From NCBI GenBank assembly GCA_031279615.1, contig JAITIE010000103.1, positions 1 to 8,737 of the forward strand: a stretch of DNA of 8,737 nt, written 5' to 3'. The first letter of the stretch is position 1, and each line of letters starts with the position of its first letter. This document shows positions 3,189 to 8,737 of the stretch, in pieces. A program made the translations under genes and the position numbers. The DNA is from Candidatus Margulisiibacteriota bacterium. Its GTDB lineage: Bacteria > Margulisbacteria > Termititenacia > Termititenacales > Termititenacaceae. The notes beneath the pieces are model-generated. The model had not been told where the DNA came from and did not search any database. It was given only the letters and a program-made list of their open reading frames with translations.

Positions 3189-4777
3189 TAGAACAGCCGC
3201 TCAACGCAGTCGGTTAATTTAAGTTCTTTAAGGTCGCGTGACACTCTGGCGTAGCCAGCTTGAATAGTTTTTACTTTGCCGAACAGGTATAACGCGGCGC
3301 CGGCGTTCAGAGCCACGGCCGCGGCCAGCGCTTTATCTTTGCGCGTGTTGACACCGCGCTGAATAATCTGCAAAAACATCTCCGCGTTTTGTCTGGCCGT
3401 GCCGCCGCGCAAATCCTCACTTTTAAAACCCCTAATGCCGAAATCCTGCGGGTTAAGTTTGTACGCTTTAATTTTTCCGGCGGCAGTCAGCTCGCGGACC
3501 TGCGTTTTGCCGCAAATGCTGATCTCATCGATACCGGACTCCGCATGCACGACCAAAGCGCGTTTCAGCCCTAGTTTTTTCAAGGTCTGGATAAACAAAT
3601 CCAGCAGGGACGGCTCGTAAACGCCGATCATCTGGCAGCCCACCTGCAAAGGATTGATCAGCGGCCCCAGCAGATTGAACACCGTGCGAAACTTGACTTC
3701 CTGCCGCACGCGGCCGACATATTTCATCGCGGGGTGGTACAGCGGCGCAAAGAAAAACGCAAAATTATTTTTGCGCAGGCTTTTTAAATTGGCCGGCAGG
3801 TCGCCGTCGGTCTTGACCTGCAAAGCCTGCAAAAAATCAAAACTGCCCGAGGACGAGGTAAAGGCGCGGTTGCCGTGCTTGGCGACCGGCGCGCCGTAAT
3901 GCGCGCAGACTAGCGCCGCCGCGCTGGATATATTAAAGGTATGCTGTCCATCTCCGCCGGTGCCGACAATATCCAGCGCATCCGGTCTTTTTTGTTTGCT
4001 GGTCATTTTTTGGCGCATCGCCAGCGCAAAGCCGGACAATTCCTCCGGTGAAATGCCTTTGACCGCGTACCCGCCCAAGAAAGCGCCAAGTTGGCTGTCC
4101 GTCAACTCACCGTCCGTTATTTCGTCCATGATTACCGCCGCTTCTTTCTGCGTCAGGCTTTCGCCCAAAGACAGCTTGCGCAACAGAGTTAATTTTTGCG
4201 AGCCGGCGCGTTTGTATTTGAGAAAATTTTCCAGCAGTTTCAAGCCTTGCTCCGCGCCAAAAGATTCGGGGTGAAACTGCACGCCCTCGATTTGATATTT
4301 TTTGTGGCGCACCGCCATGATCGCCTGATCGCGCGCCGCAAAAGCCGTGGCCGCCAAACAGTCCGGCAGCTTGGCCGGATTGGCAACCAGCGAATGATAA
4401 CGCACGATGGTCAAACCCTGCTTGAGATTGCGGAATACACCGCCTTCATCATGCTGTATGGTATCGGTCTTGCCGTGAATGATCTGCGGCGCGCCGATAA
4501 TTTCTCCGCCGAAAGCCTCCACGATCGCCTGATGTCCCAGACACACACCGAGCAGTGGAATTTTTCCAGCAAAACGCTGGATCACTTTGACGCTAATGCC
4601 GGCCTGCGCCGGACTGCCGGGGCCAGGCGAGATGACAATATGTGATGGCTGTAGTTTTTCGATCTCCGCCGGTGCGATCGCATCATTGCGCACGGTCTTG
4701 ACCGTTTGTCCCAGCATTTGTAAATACTGCGCCAAATTATAGGTAAACGAATCATAATTATCGATGAGCAAAATCAT
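3188..4777 (-). CDS. trpGD: Fused anthranilate synthase glutaminase / anthranilate phosphoribosyltransferase
   Basis: This is a 529-aa fusion. Residues 1 to about 190 form the class I glutamine amidotransferase TrpG, which supplies ammonia to TrpE. It shows DNYDSFTYN, the oxyanion loop SPGPGSP, GVCLGHQA with nucleophile Cys79, and VQFHPES with His169 and Glu171. Residues from about 195 to 529 form TrpD, which transfers the phosphoribosyl group of PRPP to anthranilate. It shows VGTGGDGQHTFNIS at 271-284, AKHGNRAFTSSSGSFDFL near 299-316, a KFRTVFNLLGPLINP stretch at 362-376, and GIDEIS at 415-420. The ATG overlaps the trpE stop as ATGA, with GGGAG seven nt upstream. The same fusion order is known in E. 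coli and Thermotoga. All catalytic residues I looked for are present, so both domains are expected to work with the neighbouring TrpE. Confidence 0.97.
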   Translation of the reverse strand: MILLIDNYDSFTYNLAQYLQMLGQTVKTVRNDAIAPAEIEKLQPSHIVISPGPGSPAQAGISVKVIQRFAGKIPLLGVCLGHQAIVEAFGGEIIGAPQIIHGKTDTIQHDEGGVFRNLKQGLTIVRYHSLVANPAKLPDCLAATAFAARDQAIMAVRHKKYQIEGVQFHPESFGAEQGLKLLENFLKYKRAGSQKLTLLRKLSLGESLTQKEAAVIMDEITDGELTDSQLGAFLGGYAVKGISPEELSGFALAMRQKMTSKQKRPDALDIVGTGGDGQHTFNISSAAALVCAHYGAPVAKHGNRAFTSSSGSFDFLQALQVKTDGDLPANLKSLRKNNFAFFFAPLYHPAMKYVGRVRQEVKFRTVFNLLGPLINPLQVGCQMIGVYEPSLLDLFIQTLKKLGLKRALVVHAESGIDEISICGKTQVRELTAAGKIKAYKLNPQDFGIRGFKSEDLRGGTARQNAEMFLQIIQRGVNTRKDKALAAAVALNAGAALYLFGKVKTIQAGYARVSRDLKELKLTDCVERLF

Positions 4778-6153
4778 AAACTCACTCCCAGAGCGCGGAT
4801 TGTCGCGCGGGCTTTGTTCAAAGTTTCGGTATATTCTTTTTCCGGCACGGAATCATAAACGATGCCCGCGCCGGACTGCGCGATAAATTTACGTCCCTGA
4901 TGCAACACCGCGCGGATCGTAATGCAGGAATCAAAACTGCCGTTCACATCAAAATAGCCGATCAGTCCGGCGTAAGGTCCGCGCCGCACCGGCTCCTGCT
5001 CGGCAACCAGCTCTATGGCCTTAATTTTGGGCGCGCCAGAAACCGTGCCGGCGGGGAACACACTGCGGATAATATCCGCCAGACCGGTGGCGGGCAGTTT
5101 TTGCGCGCGCACCTCGGAAACGATGTGCATGACATAAGCGTAACGCTCGATAAAAAACGCCCTGGCGACTTTGACCGAACCCGGCGCCGCCACGCGCCCC
5201 GCGTCGTTGCGCGCCAGATCGATGAGCATCAAATGCTCCGCGCGCTCTTTTTCGTCGGCCAGCAAATCTTTTTCCAGCGCGACATCCTCGCTGGGTGTCT
5301 TGCCGCGTGGCCGTGTGCCGGCTATCGGCTTAATGGTCACCACCTCGCCGGACAATTGCACCATAATTTCTGGCGAGGCGCCAAACAATTGAAACTCCGC
5401 AAAATCAAAATAAAAAAGATACGGCGAAGGATTTTCGCGGCGCAGACGGCAGTAGGCTTCGAAAGGCGGCAGGTCAGAATCAACTATCAACTGCTGGGAC
5501 AACACGCCCTGAATTAAGTCGCCGCGCACAATCGCTTTTTTGATCTCCTCAACGCCCTGCAGATACGCGGTTTTATTTTTATGCAACTCAGCCTGTGCCG
5601 GATAAATAGTCTGATCCGGCGTGTAAGCGCGGTAATCATTGTCTTTAAGTATGGCCAGATAACCGGCAATTTTGTTCTCCAGAGCCGCAGGGTCGGCGCC
5701 GATCGCCACGACATGCAAATCATCGCGGTAATGATCAAAAACAATGAACGCGCCGCCGAAAAGAAAACAGGCTTCCGGTGTTTCGATAGACGCCGGTTTT
5801 TCCGCAATCTTGATCGTGTCGCAAAAACGGCAAAACTCATAACTCAAATATCCTACACCGCGCGCCGGCAGCGGAAACGGCAGTTCTTCAAGCGTGATCT
5901 CCCGGCCTTTGTCTATAATCATATCCAAAAATTTCCGCGGGTCTTTTTCGACCAGCATCTCCCGTCCGGCGGCGGTTTCCACAATGCCGGCCTTGGTCAG
6001 GGACAGTTTACTGTTAGTTTCCAGCAGAATAAAAGAATAACGGTTAGTGCCTTCCAGCACGGCGGACTCCAGCAGCGCGGCGCCCCGTAGTTTTTTGAAG
6101 ACGATGACCGGCGTGTAACTGTCCGCGTTAATAGTTTTGTAAAGGCACTGCAT
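4774..6153 (-). CDS. trpE: Anthranilate synthase component I
   Basis: TrpE converts chorismate and ammonia to anthranilate, the committed step of the pathway, and pairs with the TrpG domain of the next gene. The protein is 459 aa, somewhat shorter than many TrpE proteins (roughly 490-520). The chorismate-binding core is intact: PIAGTRPRG (277-284), ERAEHLMLIDLARND (303-317), YVMHIVS with His343, FPAGTVSGAPKIKA (366-379), GLIGYF, and the final SGAGIVYDSVPEKEY block. Feedback-inhibition elements are visible: LLES at 27-30, RYS at 38-40 and NPSPYLFY at 241-248, so tryptophan inhibition is likely. The ATG is preceded by AAAGGA with 11 nt spacing. It is the first gene of the operon, directly behind a strong promoter and a palindromic operator candidate. 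Confidence 0.97.
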   Translation of the reverse strand: MQCLYKTINADSYTPVIVFKKLRGAALLESAVLEGTNRYSFILLETNSKLSLTKAGIVETAAGREMLVEKDPRKFLDMIIDKGREITLEELPFPLPARGVGYLSYEFCRFCDTIKIAEKPASIETPEACFLFGGAFIVFDHYRDDLHVVAIGADPAALENKIAGYLAILKDNDYRAYTPDQTIYPAQAELHKNKTAYLQGVEEIKKAIVRGDLIQGVLSQQLIVDSDLPPFEAYCRLRRENPSPYLFYFDFAEFQLFGASPEIMVQLSGEVVTIKPIAGTRPRGKTPSEDVALEKDLLADEKERAEHLMLIDLARNDAGRVAAPGSVKVARAFFIERYAYVMHIVSEVRAQKLPATGLADIIRSVFPAGTVSGAPKIKAIELVAEQEPVRRGPYAGLIGYFDVNGSFDSCITIRAVLHQGRKFIAQSGAGIVYDSVPEKEYTETLNKARATIRALGVSL

Positions 6154-6169
6154 AAACTTAAAATTCCTT

Positions 6170-6189
6170 TGTTTCTATATATAGAAACA
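6170..6189. promoter_or_regulatory. Perfect 20-bp palindrome, candidate trp operator
   Basis: The sequence TGTTTCTATATATAGAAACA is its own reverse complement. It touches the -10 box of the trpE promoter and spans the predicted transcription start about 17-36 nt upstream of the trpE start codon. A bound dimer here would block RNA polymerase. I do not recognise it as the E. coli TrpR site. The regulator is not in the window. Confidence 0.65.
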
Positions 6190-6217
6190 GAATAACATGT
6201 TTCCGCCGCAAAGTCAA
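6189..6217 (-). promoter_or_regulatory. Sigma-70-type promoter of the trp operon
   Basis: On the minus strand TTGACT (6217-6212) is followed by a 17-nt spacer and TATTCT (6194-6189), with an extended -10 TG one base before the -10 box. The predicted start lies near 6182, giving a leader of roughly 30 nt. This leaves no room for a leader peptide with attenuator, a T-box or a TRAP site. Confidence 0.75.
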
Positions 6218-6245
6218 ACCCCAACAATCAGGTTAAACTTTTGCC

Positions 6246-6281
6246 ATGAAAATCGCGGCAGGTTTAAGCGGCGGCGTGGAC
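6246..6281 (+). repeat. 36-bp direct repeat, left copy
   Basis: Identical at 35 of 36 positions to 7644-7679. The only mismatch is C at 6259 against T at 7657. Similarity stops at the ATG on one side and after codon 12 on the other. The pair flanks the ATPase gene. Confidence 0.95.
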
Positions 6282-6287
6282 GCCTAA
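6246..6287 (+). pseudogene. Truncated duplicate of the mnmA start (13-codon stub)
   Basis: This short frame encodes MKIAAGLSGGVDA and then TAA. The first 36 bases match the first 12 codons of the full mnmA at 7644 with one difference (GCA against GTA, codon 5). It contains the start of the ATP-binding loop SGGVD but nothing else, so it cannot be functional. Its TAA (6285-6287) overlaps the TAG of the ATPase gene on the other strand (6286-6284). There is no Shine-Dalgarno site. A weak -10-like TAAACT (6234-6239) ends 6 nt before the ATG, almost the same layout as at the intact gene. It is best explained as the remnant of the original mnmA start or as a duplicated end of the ATPase cassette. 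Confidence 0.8.
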
Positions 6288-7507
6288 CTTTGCTCTTCTT
6301 GCAACAGCCAATTTATTACATTGAGCTGTCTGATCCCATTATGCGTCGGTTCTTCGGGATCAAGCGTGAGTAGATATTTTGGGAAATGATCGTTAAGTCT
6401 ATTAAGCGGCGCCAGTTCGCGCGCCAAAGTGTTTTCCTGGCGCACGGTCAGCGCCACTTGATAGTAACCCAGCAGGCCATTCTCATCCTGACAGACAAAG
6501 TCCACCTCGGCCGCCGCGGCTTTACCCACAAAAACATTTTTGTATCTTCTGGCCAGCTCCAGATAAATCAGGTTCTCCAGCAAATGCCCGCGATTGACCT
6601 GCGCATGACGCCCCAGCACAGCCAGCAGCAAACCGGTGTCTGCGACATAATACTTACCCAGCGTTTGCAGCAATTTTTTACCTTTAATATCATAACGCCG
6701 CACATCCGTCAGCAAAAAACCATCCGCTAGATACTGCAGATAATTTTCCACAGTTTGCTTGTTAATTTTTTGGCCGTTTTTGGCCAGCGTTCCGGCAATA
6801 TTATTCGGCGAAACCAGCGAGCCAACCGAGTCAAGCATAAAGCGGAACAGATTTTCAAAGTCAAATCTAGAGCGAATTTTTTTTCGTTTCATTATGTCAT
6901 TTTCCAAAATAGCAGAATAAATACCGGTCAGATAATTGTTAATCTGTGATTTAGCTCGACTGTTTAACATATTTGACGCTTCGGGAAAACCGCCGTACAG
7001 AATAAAATCCTCAAAAAGTTCCGTCTGGTTTCGTGCGGCGGGAGCATTTTGCGCAAACTCCGCAAAAGAAAAGGGCAGCATTCTAATCTCCACGCATCTG
7101 CCGGTGAGCAAGGTCGCTAAATCGGAGGAAAGAAAATTGGCATTGGAACCGGTAAGATACAAGTCTATATACGGCTTAACAAACAAAGAATCGACCAATT
7201 TCTCAAAATTGGGGACATTTTGGATTTCATCAAGAAAAACATAATTTTTCCGTCCAGGCGCACAGTTTTTTAGAATATGCGTGTGCAGAACATGACGGTC
7301 GAGCAAGGCCTCATTTTCCATTTCTTCGAGGTTAATGCTCAAAATATTTTTAGGCTTCACACCGGAGCGCAACAATTCCTGTTGAAATTGCACAAACAGA
7401 GTGGATTTACCGCAACGGCGAATGCCGGTTATGATTTTTATCAGACGCGCGCCGCGCAGCAAACGTAGTTTGGCCAGATATCTTTCCCGTTTTACCATTT
7501 TTTTCAT
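6284..7507 (-). CDS. AAA-family ATPase with C-terminal DUF4143 domain
   Basis: This 407-aa protein has the layout of the widespread AAA_14/DUF4143 family, whose cellular role is poorly known. The N-terminal P-loop domain shows Walker A GIRRCGKST (28-36), Walker B YVFLDEIQ (89-96) with Asp93 and Glu94, and a sensor-like LTGSN (118-122), followed by MLPFSFAEF (143-151). The C-terminal half contains YLQYLADGFLL, GKYYVADTGLL, GHLLENLIYLEL and AEVDFV (333-338), the last resembling the acidic core of a nuclease-like fold. No signal peptide or membrane segment is visible. The ATG at 7507 has no Shine-Dalgarno site; Met4 is an alternative. The gene lies upstream of trpE in the same direction and has no pathway link to its neighbours. 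With direct repeats of the mnmA start on both sides, it looks like an acquired cassette. Members are common accessory genes, sometimes discussed as defence or toxin-like, but that is not shown here. Confidence 0.88.
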   Translation of the reverse strand: MKKMVKRERYLAKLRLLRGARLIKIITGIRRCGKSTLFVQFQQELLRSGVKPKNILSINLEEMENEALLDRHVLHTHILKNCAPGRKNYVFLDEIQNVPNFEKLVDSLFVKPYIDLYLTGSNANFLSSDLATLLTGRCVEIRMLPFSFAEFAQNAPAARNQTELFEDFILYGGFPEASNMLNSRAKSQINNYLTGIYSAILENDIMKRKKIRSRFDFENLFRFMLDSVGSLVSPNNIAGTLAKNGQKINKQTVENYLQYLADGFLLTDVRRYDIKGKKLLQTLGKYYVADTGLLLAVLGRHAQVNRGHLLENLIYLELARRYKNVFVGKAAAAEVDFVCQDENGLLGYYQVALTVRQENTLARELAPLNRLNDHFPKYLLTLDPEEPTHNGIRQLNVINWLLQEEQS

Positions 7508-7518
7508 AATAGCGATAC

Positions 7519-7524
7519 TTTATA
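7519..7524 (-). promoter_or_regulatory. Possible -10 box of the ATPase gene
   Basis: TATAAA on the minus strand ends 11 nt before the ATG, which predicts a leader of only about 5 nt. No convincing -35 box is visible at the usual distance; that region falls in the inverted repeat next door. Tentative. Confidence 0.35.
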
Positions 7525-7535
7525 TTTTTACACAC

Positions 7536-7561
7536 TTTCGCTATTAGCGCAAATAGCGAAA
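7536..7561. repeat. Inverted repeat upstream of the ATPase gene
   Basis: TTTCGCTATT (7536-7545) and AATAGCGAAA (7552-7561) form perfect 10-bp arms around a 6-nt centre. A further copy of AATAGCGA occurs at 7508-7515, directly before the ATPase start. The arrangement fits a dimer-binding operator plus an extra half-site, possibly for autoregulation. No T-run follows in either direction to suggest an intrinsic terminator. Confidence 0.6.
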
Positions 7562-7625
7562 TTTTAAGGTTTTATTCACACATTATATTCTGGCAGCAAG
7601 CATTTTGGTGTTTTTTTAAGGTTTT
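7562..7625 (+). repeat. 12-bp direct repeat in the ATPase-mnmA intergenic region
   Basis: TTTTAAGGTTTT occurs at 7562-7573 and again at 7614-7625, 52 bp apart start to start. It lies in the AT-rich 136-bp spacer between the two divergent starts. Meaning unknown; it may be a regulatory site or chance in AT-rich DNA. Confidence 0.5.
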
Positions 7626-7630
7626 CCGCT

Positions 7631-7636
7631 TATACT
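7631..7636 (+). promoter_or_regulatory. Possible -10 box of mnmA
   Basis: TATACT matches the -10 consensus at 5 of 6 positions and ends 7 nt before the mnmA ATG, so transcription would begin at or next to the start codon. The only -35-like sequence, TTGGTG at 7605-7610, is 20 nt away and weak. Confidence 0.4.
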
Positions 7637-7643
7637 ATCTGTC

Positions 7644-7679
7644 ATGAAAATCGCGGTAGGTTTAAGCGGCGGCGTGGAC
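7644..7679 (+). repeat. 36-bp direct repeat, right copy (start of intact mnmA)
   Basis: Covers codons 1-12 of mnmA and pairs with 6246-6281 (one mismatch). The distance between copies is 1398 bp and the ATPase gene fills nearly all of it. Confidence 0.95.
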
Positions 7680-8737
7680 AGCGCGGTTGCAGCGCTGTTA
7701 TTGCAACAGGCCGGACATGAAGTTGTCGGCATCACGATGTCTATCTGGCAGGCGCCGGCAACTCCGTCAGTTGCCGGCACTTCTGCGGCGGCTTGTAGCC
7801 GCTCGCAGTCGCAAGCCGTTGATGCGTGTTATGGGCCGAATGAAAAAGAAGACATCGCGCTGGCGCAAAAAATCGCGGATATTTTACAAATCCCCTACCA
7901 TGTGCTGGACTGCGCCGCGCCGTACCAAAAAATCGTGCTGGATTATTTCAAAGATGAATATTTAGCCGGACGCACGCCCAACCCCTGCGTGTTCTGCAAC
8001 AGTCAGGTGAAATTCGGCGTCCTGCTCGAGCTGGCCAGACAAAGCGGCATTGGTTTCGATAAATTCGCGACCGGACATTACGCACGTATCGAAAAAATAG
8101 ACACAGGACATTACCCGAACTTAACAAACGCAGCGAAGTTAAGTGAGGGCAACAAGCGCGAAGCGCGAAGTTATGCCAATGTCGAAAAAATAAACAACCG
8201 CTTTGTCCTGAAAAAAGCGCGCGACGCCCAAAAAGACCAGACTTATTTTTTGTACCGCCTGAAACAAGAACAACTCGCGCAGATAATTTTTCCACTCGGG
8301 GATTTGACCAAAGACGAAGTGCGGAAAATCGCGCGAGAAAATAATTTGCCGGTCAGCGCCAAGCCGGACAGTCAGGATTTCTACAGCGGCGACTACAGTG
8401 ACCTTATCGGCGCGCCGGACAAGGCCGGAAATATCGTGGACGCCAGCGGCAAAATATGGGGGACGCACAACGGCTACTGGCATTTCACTATCGGCCAGCG
8501 CAAGGGACTGGGTGTCGCCGCGGAGCGACCGTTGTATGTGCTGGACATCGATGCGGCCAACAATGAAGTGATCGTCGGTTACGAGGAAGAAACTTTGTGC
8601 CGCGGCTTGCTTGCCGACAATATAAACTGGCTCATTGCTGAAAAACCGGAAAGAATATCCGCGCAGATCAAAATCCGTTCGGCACAGCAAGAATTTCCGG
8701 CGGAGATAATTCCGCGTGAGGACAACACTATCGAAGC
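7644..8737 (+). CDS. mnmA: tRNA-specific 2-thiouridylase, 3' end beyond the window
   Basis: MnmA activates U34 of tRNA-Lys, -Glu and -Gln with ATP and inserts sulfur to give 2-thiouridine. The frame is open from the ATG at 7644 to the window end (364 codons plus 2 bases). Motifs: PP-loop GLSGGVDSAV (6-15), ACYGPNEKEDI, NPCVFCNSQVKF with the catalytic Cys118 and CxxC partner Cys115, ATGHYARI (142-149), KDQTYFLYRL (197-206), and FTIGQRKGLG. After KPDSQD (240-245) the sequence goes FYSGDY, where E. coli has GICFIG with the second active-site Cys; no Cys is present there. Two segments look inserted: about residues 37-60 (Ala/Ser/Thr-rich, strong DNA hairpins) and 153-183 (flanked by a duplicated YARIEKID / YANVEKIN). 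No Shine-Dalgarno site; possibly leaderless. The first 12 codons are duplicated at 6246. Confidence 0.95.
   Translation, partial: MKIAVGLSGGVDSAVAALLLQQAGHEVVGITMSIWQAPATPSVAGTSAAACSRSQSQAVDACYGPNEKEDIALAQKIADILQIPYHVLDCAAPYQKIVLDYFKDEYLAGRTPNPCVFCNSQVKFGVLLELARQSGIGFDKFATGHYARIEKIDTGHYPNLTNAAKLSEGNKREARSYANVEKINNRFVLKKARDAQKDQTYFLYRLKQEQLAQIIFPLGDLTKDEVRKIARENNLPVSAKPDSQDFYSGDYSDLIGAPDKAGNIVDASGKIWGTHNGYWHFTIGQRKGLGVAAERPLYVLDIDAANNEVIVGYEEETLCRGLLADNINWLIAEKPERISAQIKIRSAQQEFPAEIIPREDNTIE
7754..7818. repeat. Hairpin-rich segment inside mnmA
   Basis: GCCGGCAACT (7754-7763) and AGTTGCCGGC (7769-7778) form a perfect 10-bp stem with a 5-nt loop. It is followed by GCGGCT/AGCCGC (7788-7793 and 7797-7802), or alternatively CGGCTTG/CAAGCCG (7789-7795 and 7812-7818). 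The DNA encodes a low-complexity Ala/Ser/Thr stretch absent from E. coli MnmA, so it may be an inserted palindromic element that kept the frame open. Confidence 0.65.
8079..8195 (+). repeat. Repeat-flanked in-frame insertion inside mnmA
   Basis: A 24-base unit at 8079-8102 (YARIEKID) is repeated imperfectly at 8172-8195 (YANVEKIN), 93 bp (31 codons) apart. GGACATTAC also occurs twice (8073-8081 and 8106-8114). Between them lies an inverted repeat ACTTAAC/GTTAAGT (8119-8125 and 8138-8144) and a GCGAAGCGCGAAG run. This falls between ATGHYARI and the KDQTYF block, where the family normally has a short loop. Confidence 0.65.

Follow-up and report, generated by a model that had tools for sequence, protein, structure and literature searches.

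A one-gene ATPase cassette inserted at the start of mnmA and the recurrence of its footprint

The start of the tRNA 2-thiouridine synthase gene mnmA in the window, by which we mean the whole 8,737-nt stretch of DNA analysed here, has been entered at codon 12 by a 1362-bp cassette that gave the gene a new upstream region. The insert carries an ATPase gene; its target gene is restored on the right, and the old gene end stands displaced on the left. The same framing recurs around other members of the ATPase family, and we would give a probability of roughly one half to the reading that the ATPase gene, together with 136 bp of upstream DNA, was put into mnmA by an insertion that does without a transposase and is guided by gene ends.

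The mnmA locus and its empty site

The genes trpA, trpB, a fused trpCF, a fused trpGD and trpE all lie on the minus strand of the window (trpA, trpB and trpCF were identified by eye, without a profile search), and trpE, encoding anthranilate synthase component I (4774..6153; Pfam Chorismate_bind 1.5e-84, NCBIfam trpE_most 3.7e-141), is the left neighbour of the insertion. Next come the original trpE–mnmA spacer (6154..6245), which aligns with the spacers of the relatives G005, G004 and G001 and represents the ancestral mnmA upstream region, and the start that mnmA had originally, now a displaced plus-strand stub of 12 codons (6246..6281). The inserted stretch, missing from these three relatives, covers 6282..7643 and holds a minus-strand gene for a DUF4143 AAA+ ATPase of 407 amino acids (6284..7507; PDC-S01 in PADLOC) and, on the cassette's upstream side, 136 bp that now serve as the mnmA upstream region (7508..7643) and in which a simple scan called no promoter-like site. 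The functional mnmA start follows (7644..7679, plus strand), and the gene (7644..8735; NCBIfam PRK00143 2.7e-99) runs off the contig.

A repeat search of the window found one two-copy direct repeat family, 40 nt in length, with copies 1398 bp apart and identical at 38/40 positions (95%). The initial annotation had described the ATPase gene as framed by a 36-bp direct repeat of the mnmA start, and the framing holds: the first 36 bp of the gene occur at 6246-6281 and again at 7644-7679 and differ at one base, although the extent of the repeat had been drawn too short and reaches 4 bp further upstream in both copies (6242-6281 and 7640-7679). The left copy consists of ATG and 11 further codons, followed by GCC TAA, and is a dead stub; the right copy heads the mnmA reading frame, which continues to the end of the contig. 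Only 2 bp separate the ATPase stop codon from the stub. In line with the first description, the DUF4143 ATPase is the sole ORF with a Pfam match between the copies (AAA_14 2.2e-34, DUF4143 9.8e-21); four overlapping antisense ORFs of at least 60 amino acids had no such match. The absence of a visible integrase and of terminal inverted repeats was also borne out, a Pfam search of the ORFs between the copies finding no transposase or integrase domain and the two 60-bp ends of the insert having no inverted 6-mer in common.

Five other genomes of the genus were searched, two of which gave no mnmA match; in all three that did (3/3; G005, G004 and G001), trpE and mnmA are adjacent, and the empty junction that the initial annotation had proposed to look for is thus found in every testable genome. 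In two genomes of the sister genus, mnmA was found, with no trpE within the stretch taken. The left spacer of the window aligns with the spacers of the three relatives at local scores of 65, 100 and 103, the alignment including the block TTTCTATATATAGAAA, whereas the scores for the 136 bp in front of the right copy are 18, 12 and 12, the mean for shuffled sequence being about 16. Since the left spacer aligns and the right 136 bp do not, 6282-7643 has been inserted, leaving mnmA with cassette DNA ahead of its start, much as had been suspected when the ATPase gene was taken for a cassette that had arrived at the 5′ end of mnmA and brought a new upstream region.

The repeat itself is of local origin. 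At 2 of the 36 mnmA positions, both copies share bases that are absent from five orthologs, and with such lineage-private bases in both, the repeat is most simply made from the lineage's own mnmA by a local duplication; at the one position where the copies differ, the functional copy agrees with the orthologs, so the stub has begun to decay. Two further loci give the same picture with more positions, namely asnB, where 5/101 bases are private and common to both copies (three orthologs, three differences), and dapL, with 15/52 (two orthologs, one difference), as does glf, with 5/61 (two orthologs, no differences); at uvrC (1/73, two orthologs, eight differences) and obgE (5/33, one ortholog, five differences), the test of local origin is weak. 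The empty site has one copy of the sequence that is duplicated in the window, as in a target duplication, and the objection, raised at the outset, that 36 bp would be too long for one fails, both copies carrying the same two private bases.

Local origin of both copies speaks for our reading and also for what we regard as its main rival, a long target-site duplication. Under this explanation, two nicks 20-200 nt apart on opposite strands would be filled in after the cassette had joined, and the nicks would likely be made by the DUF4143 protein itself, with its AAA+ and putative PD-(D/E)XK-like domains, making the cassette a self-mobilising one-gene element. For the reasons given along the way below, we consider it the less likely of the two.

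The ATPase family and the recurrence of framing

Judged by its sequence, the gene in the cassette is a match to PDC-S01, a candidate anti-phage family (PADLOC profile PDLC04787, E 2.5e-144, residues 1-404 of 407). PDC-S01 is given as a candidate system, the fourth most common defence across prokaryotes, and as an ATPase fused to a PD-(D/E)XK domain, and the text on PDC-S01 in the same source holds no description of how it moves within genomes (PMC12988326). Among the titles and abstracts listed by literature searches, none dealt with the movement of DUF4143 or PDC-S01 genes, which, with subscription journals and preprints thinly covered, is weak evidence of absence. The fused nuclease-type domain of the published description speaks for a staggered cut by the protein itself, but the window protein offers a point against it: in its subfamily, D336 and Q350 are invariant, and A352 stands where another member has E-x-K, such that, on our reading of the motif, the canonical lysine of the nuclease-like motif would be replaced. 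An AF2 model of the ATPase reached a pLDDT of 91.4, and the top folds matching it in a second look were the archaeal AAA+ ATPases 2qen and 2fna; as the whole-model matches span residues 1-307 only, they have no bearing on the C-terminal domain, which, modelled alone from a single sequence, gave a pLDDT of 44, too poor for a fold search.

The host genome has 14 DUF4143 genes on 1.02 Mb, and seven relatives gave 52 further matches; after one of the 66 rows was dropped, its locus lying outside the family, 65 distinct genes from the eight genomes of the host's family were read. A gene was called framed if its two flanks have a direct repeat with a score of at least 18. By this measure 19/65 genes are framed, 17 of them found in a first scan (next best score 14) and two in a wider one. 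Among genes with enough flank, 17/55 are framed versus 19/2968 cross-paired flanks, and the eight of these 19 matches that were inspected were all between related cassettes. As so few cross-paired flanks reach a score of 18 and the window repeat scores 34, chance is excluded as the source of the framing. Control ORFs from the same loci were framed in 3/164 cases, these being a SoFic gene in the asnB start, a PDC-S13 gene and one ORF with a 20-bp repeat; among the Fic genes listed for the family, 22 in number, five are framed at a score of at least 18, two of them by palindromes. Palindromic repeats also occur at 7/19 framed DUF4143 genes, and with some of these inherited in place, the 19 amount to at most about 16 events. 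The 46/65 genes without a framing repeat at score 18 may be old, decayed or cut by contig ends, or may have come by another route.

Fifteen of the family cases are non-palindromic (12 DUF4143 genes, SoFic at L058, PDC-S13 at L087 and a ParE-type toxin-antitoxin pair at L146), and in 12/15 the repeat covers a gene terminus. With the target genes named from the sequence by eye, the repeat lies at the start of mnmA (window), cmk (L105), obgE (L108), asnB (L058), a metallophosphatase gene (L094) and a glycosyltransferase gene (L069), and at the end of phoR (L047), a tonB-like gene (L057), dapL (L073), hydG (L106), ppdK (L146) and tpiA (L063); in uvrC (L074) and glf (L143/L093) it is an internal piece near the gene end, and the PDC-S13 case at L087 is ambiguous. 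In five of the ten non-palindromic DUF4143 cases of the first scan, the right copy begins -2, 0, 2, 4 and 5 bp from the stop codon of the insert. The copies are 95-100% identical at several loci, which suits a target-site duplication, but the displaced ends range from 21 to 206 bp, and the want of a fixed repeat length does not.

Certain gene ends are occupied by unlike cassettes. The end of glf has DUF4143 genes merely 28% identical in G001 and G003, and G000 has a DUF4143 gene on the 5′ side of glf; the obgE start is occupied by two further DUF4143 genes, from G000 and G001, whose identity over a short stretch is 22%. Inserts have also followed one another at the same site, leaving stubs between them: at the glycosyltransferase gene of G007, the order is Fic, a 206-bp stub, an FkbM methyltransferase gene (L163, 5465-6319), a 23-bp stub, DUF4143 and the gene itself, which reads as two insertions in a row. 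At L146 (16162-16984), a ParE-type toxin gene and a small antitoxin-like ORF lie between two 53-bp copies of the ppdK end, ppdK being named by eye. The footprint is the same around SoFic, PDC-S13 and this toxin-antitoxin pair, so it does not require DUF4143 in cis; inserts without a nuclease bear the footprint of DUF4143 inserts, and these three together with the FkbM methyltransferase, which shows the same repeats, count against a staggered cut by the cassette's own protein.

DUF4143 genes framed by copies of a neighbour's end, which the initial annotation had suggested searching for, are found in the family, and framing direct repeats occur around such genes in other phyla and in phages as well. 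Using an alignment of eight family members, the best 80 of 584 loci were fetched, and 10/80 of their DUF4143 genes are framed versus 4/159 other ORFs, the four being two further DUF4143 genes, one ORF that is ORF6N-like by eye and one other; the ten include L183, a Candidatus Margulisiibacteriota MAG contig from the host's family itself. In the mostly cross-phylum set, 11/90 are framed versus 5/7986 cross-pairings, and in phage contigs 4/56 DUF4143 genes versus 7/3078 cross-pairings. Nine loci from outside the family were read closely; only two of them, both at terL, have the repeat at a recognisable gene end, the remaining seven having it where no conserved gene was recognised, and it is therefore chiefly the family that supports the gene-end rule. 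In the phage contigs L293, L297, L328, L301, L302 and L304, DUF4143-type genes are placed between terL and portal (gene names by eye). From these patterns, it seems likely that framed single genes spread as cassettes of one gene each, with no transposase encoded in the cassette.

Recurrence bears also on a more trivial idea of the repeat, that of an artefact of assembly or a plain tandem duplication beside a transferred gene. The window does come from one fragmented assembly of 165 contigs, and its protein is listed from that contig only; but the 40-bp copies differ by two bases, assemblies made independently of this one, among them a public Margulisiibacteriota MAG and contigs of other phyla and of phages, show framing too, and framing is strongly enriched over controls, and we give the idea very little credence.

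The variety of targets and inserts weighs on explanations of another kind. A recombinase acting in trans, of the tyrosine or Xer type, might use gene ends as attachment sites, with the cassettes carrying the matching gene end. Gene ends are the sites of insertion in the family, the gene is restored, and several SoFic and DUF4143 ORFs have palindromic direct repeats right beside them; however, no sequence common to the targets was seen by eye, and the insert has no integrase domain. Xer/pdif sites were rejected as a basis, as the dif half-site pattern, which we take to be TTATGTTAA / TTAACATAA, is absent from positions 6100-7800 of the window and no half-site was found at seven plasmid loci. 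We hold such a recombinase to be improbable, and the earlier likening of the cassette to a site-specific element has to be given up, since the targets differ from locus to locus and the inserts come from several gene families.

The palindromic direct repeats, of 25-47 bp, are found at several SoFic and DUF4143 genes, close to where these start and stop (L055, 10703-10749/12005-12051; L122; L126; L164, 2169/3171; L098; L191). The palindromes vary from one family to another, and some have been inherited in place in more than one genome. Two conserved palindrome families were considered as mobile element ends and rejected. In the first (L075, L080, L098), the collinearity of L075 extends across the whole locus in L098 and as far as the gene end in L080, so that inheritance in place accounts for at least part of it. 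In the second, L097 is collinear with L055, and L055 and L081 have DNA in common only from the first base of the left palindrome to about 20 bp before the stop codon. The palindromes are kept as a separate class. Inside mnmA, both in the window and in G001, there is a short palindrome-like stretch, GAACTTAACAA..GCGAAGTTAAG, the positions noted being about 8118-8150 in the window, 11024 in L153 and 8025 in L060; GCGAAGTTAAG recurs in a dozen other loci and resembles a palindromic repeat element able to sit in coding DNA. REP-like stretches with AAGGGACAGG or its complement (L077, L160) recur in G005 and G006. Contig C3 of G001 has a CRISPR-like array (L158 from 16831 into L159) with repeats of about 34 bp, TATAACACACTTGAAATTAAGGGTAAGTCAAAAC, and among the matches listed from an unbiased repeat scan are this array and coding tandem repeats of L158-L159. 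In G001, an ORF that looks MazF-like by eye (L097, about 1762) runs across the stop codon of the DUF4143 gene behind uvrC.

Cassette boundaries and a proposed route of insertion

At three loci, the two copies of the gene end part company in a telling manner. At L298, the repeat spans 106 bp of terL with four mismatches, and both copies end in LLFI and a stop, written in different codons (CTACTATTTATTTAA vs CTTTTGTTTATATAG). The functional copy and the two stubs of the glycosyltransferase gene begin with three different codon runs and then agree, and the dapL copies are identical at 51/52 bases and then have different yet homologous tails. Clear recoded ends are found at these three loci only; the uvrC and glf stubs are internal pieces without the last codons of the gene (the continuation of the glf stub was considered as an alternative glf tail and dropped, as it runs into the start of the next gene), and in the mnmA copy of the window no foreign base or codon was recognised. 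A foreign gene end beside a host-derived repeat is not what staggered cutting alone gives, and the recoded ends at terL, dapL and the glycosyltransferase gene would demand of a target-site duplication an extra step; switching to the cassette and back does give such an arrangement. At mnmA, where the start codon is inside the repeat and foreign codons are not visible, a plain staggered cut explains the locus equally well.

The boundaries of the unit were read from 16 pairs of related DUF4143 genes, selected from 142 alignments because the main alignment runs no more than 300 bp beyond the gene on either side; certain genes belong to more than one pair, and for some pairs separate alignments show the flanks to be related. 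The DNA common to a pair ends within 12 bp of the stop codon in 14/16 pairs, a boundary to be expected in part at 77-86% identity, as similarity persists longer in coding DNA, and extends at least 59 bp upstream of the start in 12/16. The stronger cases are two pairs at about 92% identity, both situated between terL and portal of related phages, in which the common DNA ends 7 bp downstream and 172-174 bp upstream. A unit ending at its stop codon speaks for target-site duplication, and a template switch does not predict it.

Under the gene-end-guided insertion that we prefer, the copying of a host gene would switch onto an incoming cassette and then resume on the host further back, by 36 bp at mnmA; a return point 20-200 bp behind would turn the old end into a stub and keep the host gene intact. 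The mobile unit would be one gene with its upstream region, ending at or near the stop codon and sometimes carrying the last or first few codons of its former neighbour, and these carried codons could guide the cassette to the same gene end elsewhere. Such a template switch would be a relative of homology-facilitated illegitimate recombination during DNA uptake. ComEC is present in 8/8 family genomes (and in 10/14 control genomes, so it is common) and Ku in 0/8; these counts prove neither route, but DNA uptake with illegitimate joining fits them better than Ku-type end joining, which the 0/8 rule against.

It is possible, though less likely than not, that SoFic, PDC-S01 and PDC-S13, which count among the commonest candidate defence systems of one gene, together make up a previously undescribed class of one-gene cassettes, having neither transposase nor inverted ends and bounded on the 3′ side by the stop codon, which would insert, guided by codons, at conserved gene ends of cells and phages, leave a host-derived repeat of 20-200 bp and be stackable. 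Whatever their route, the cassettes leave a footprint that any genome can be scored for: a single gene whose stop codon adjoins a stub of a neighbour's end. With it, insertions can be put in order, their targets identified and the empty sites located exactly. It also shows how a housekeeping gene can receive an insert within its coding end and stay intact, and it turns the entry route of solitary PDC-S01-type genes into a testable question.

Comparison with known systems

The cassettes share features with several known systems. Like insertion sequences with long target duplications, they are flanked by direct repeats of tens of bases, but unlike these they were found to have no transposase and no terminal inverted repeats. 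Integrative elements at gene ends, such as prophages and islands, restore the gene with a copy of their own, and the cassettes resemble them in using a gene end as the site, keeping the gene whole and leaving a direct repeat; they differ in lacking an integrase, in consisting of one gene only and in having many different targets. Free-standing homing endonuclease genes are single genes in or beside conserved genes, with recoded flanking codons at some sites, and the same can be said of the cassettes. DUF4143 proteins, however, are of the AAA+ type with a putative nuclease-like domain, and non-nuclease genes leave the same footprint.

The pdif (Xer) modules of Acinetobacter are single-gene modules between short repeats, a layout that the cassettes match, and relatives of the ATPase gene occur in 173 Acinetobacter plasmid records. 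In contrast to pdif modules, the seven plasmid loci examined, five of them from Acinetobacter, have no dif half-sites, and one of the seven has a framing repeat with a score of at least 18 (22 bp). On three Acinetobacter plasmids (L334-L336), near-identical DUF4143 genes lie beside WYL, DUF1819 and DUF1788 genes, a set that is presumably BREX-like.

The T6SS effector arrays of V. cholerae, for which homology-facilitated illegitimate recombination has been proposed as the means of gene displacement (PMC5361080), are the nearest of the published cases consulted. They differ from the cassettes in several ways: the latter enter unrelated housekeeping genes and displace an end of 21-206 bp, their two repeat copies both seem to stem from the host, and the stop codon is often the boundary of the insert. 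The two are nevertheless alike in other points, since the arrays are described with a homologous anchor on one side and illegitimate joining on the other, with displaced gene parts kept and with growth by successive insertion (PMC5361080).
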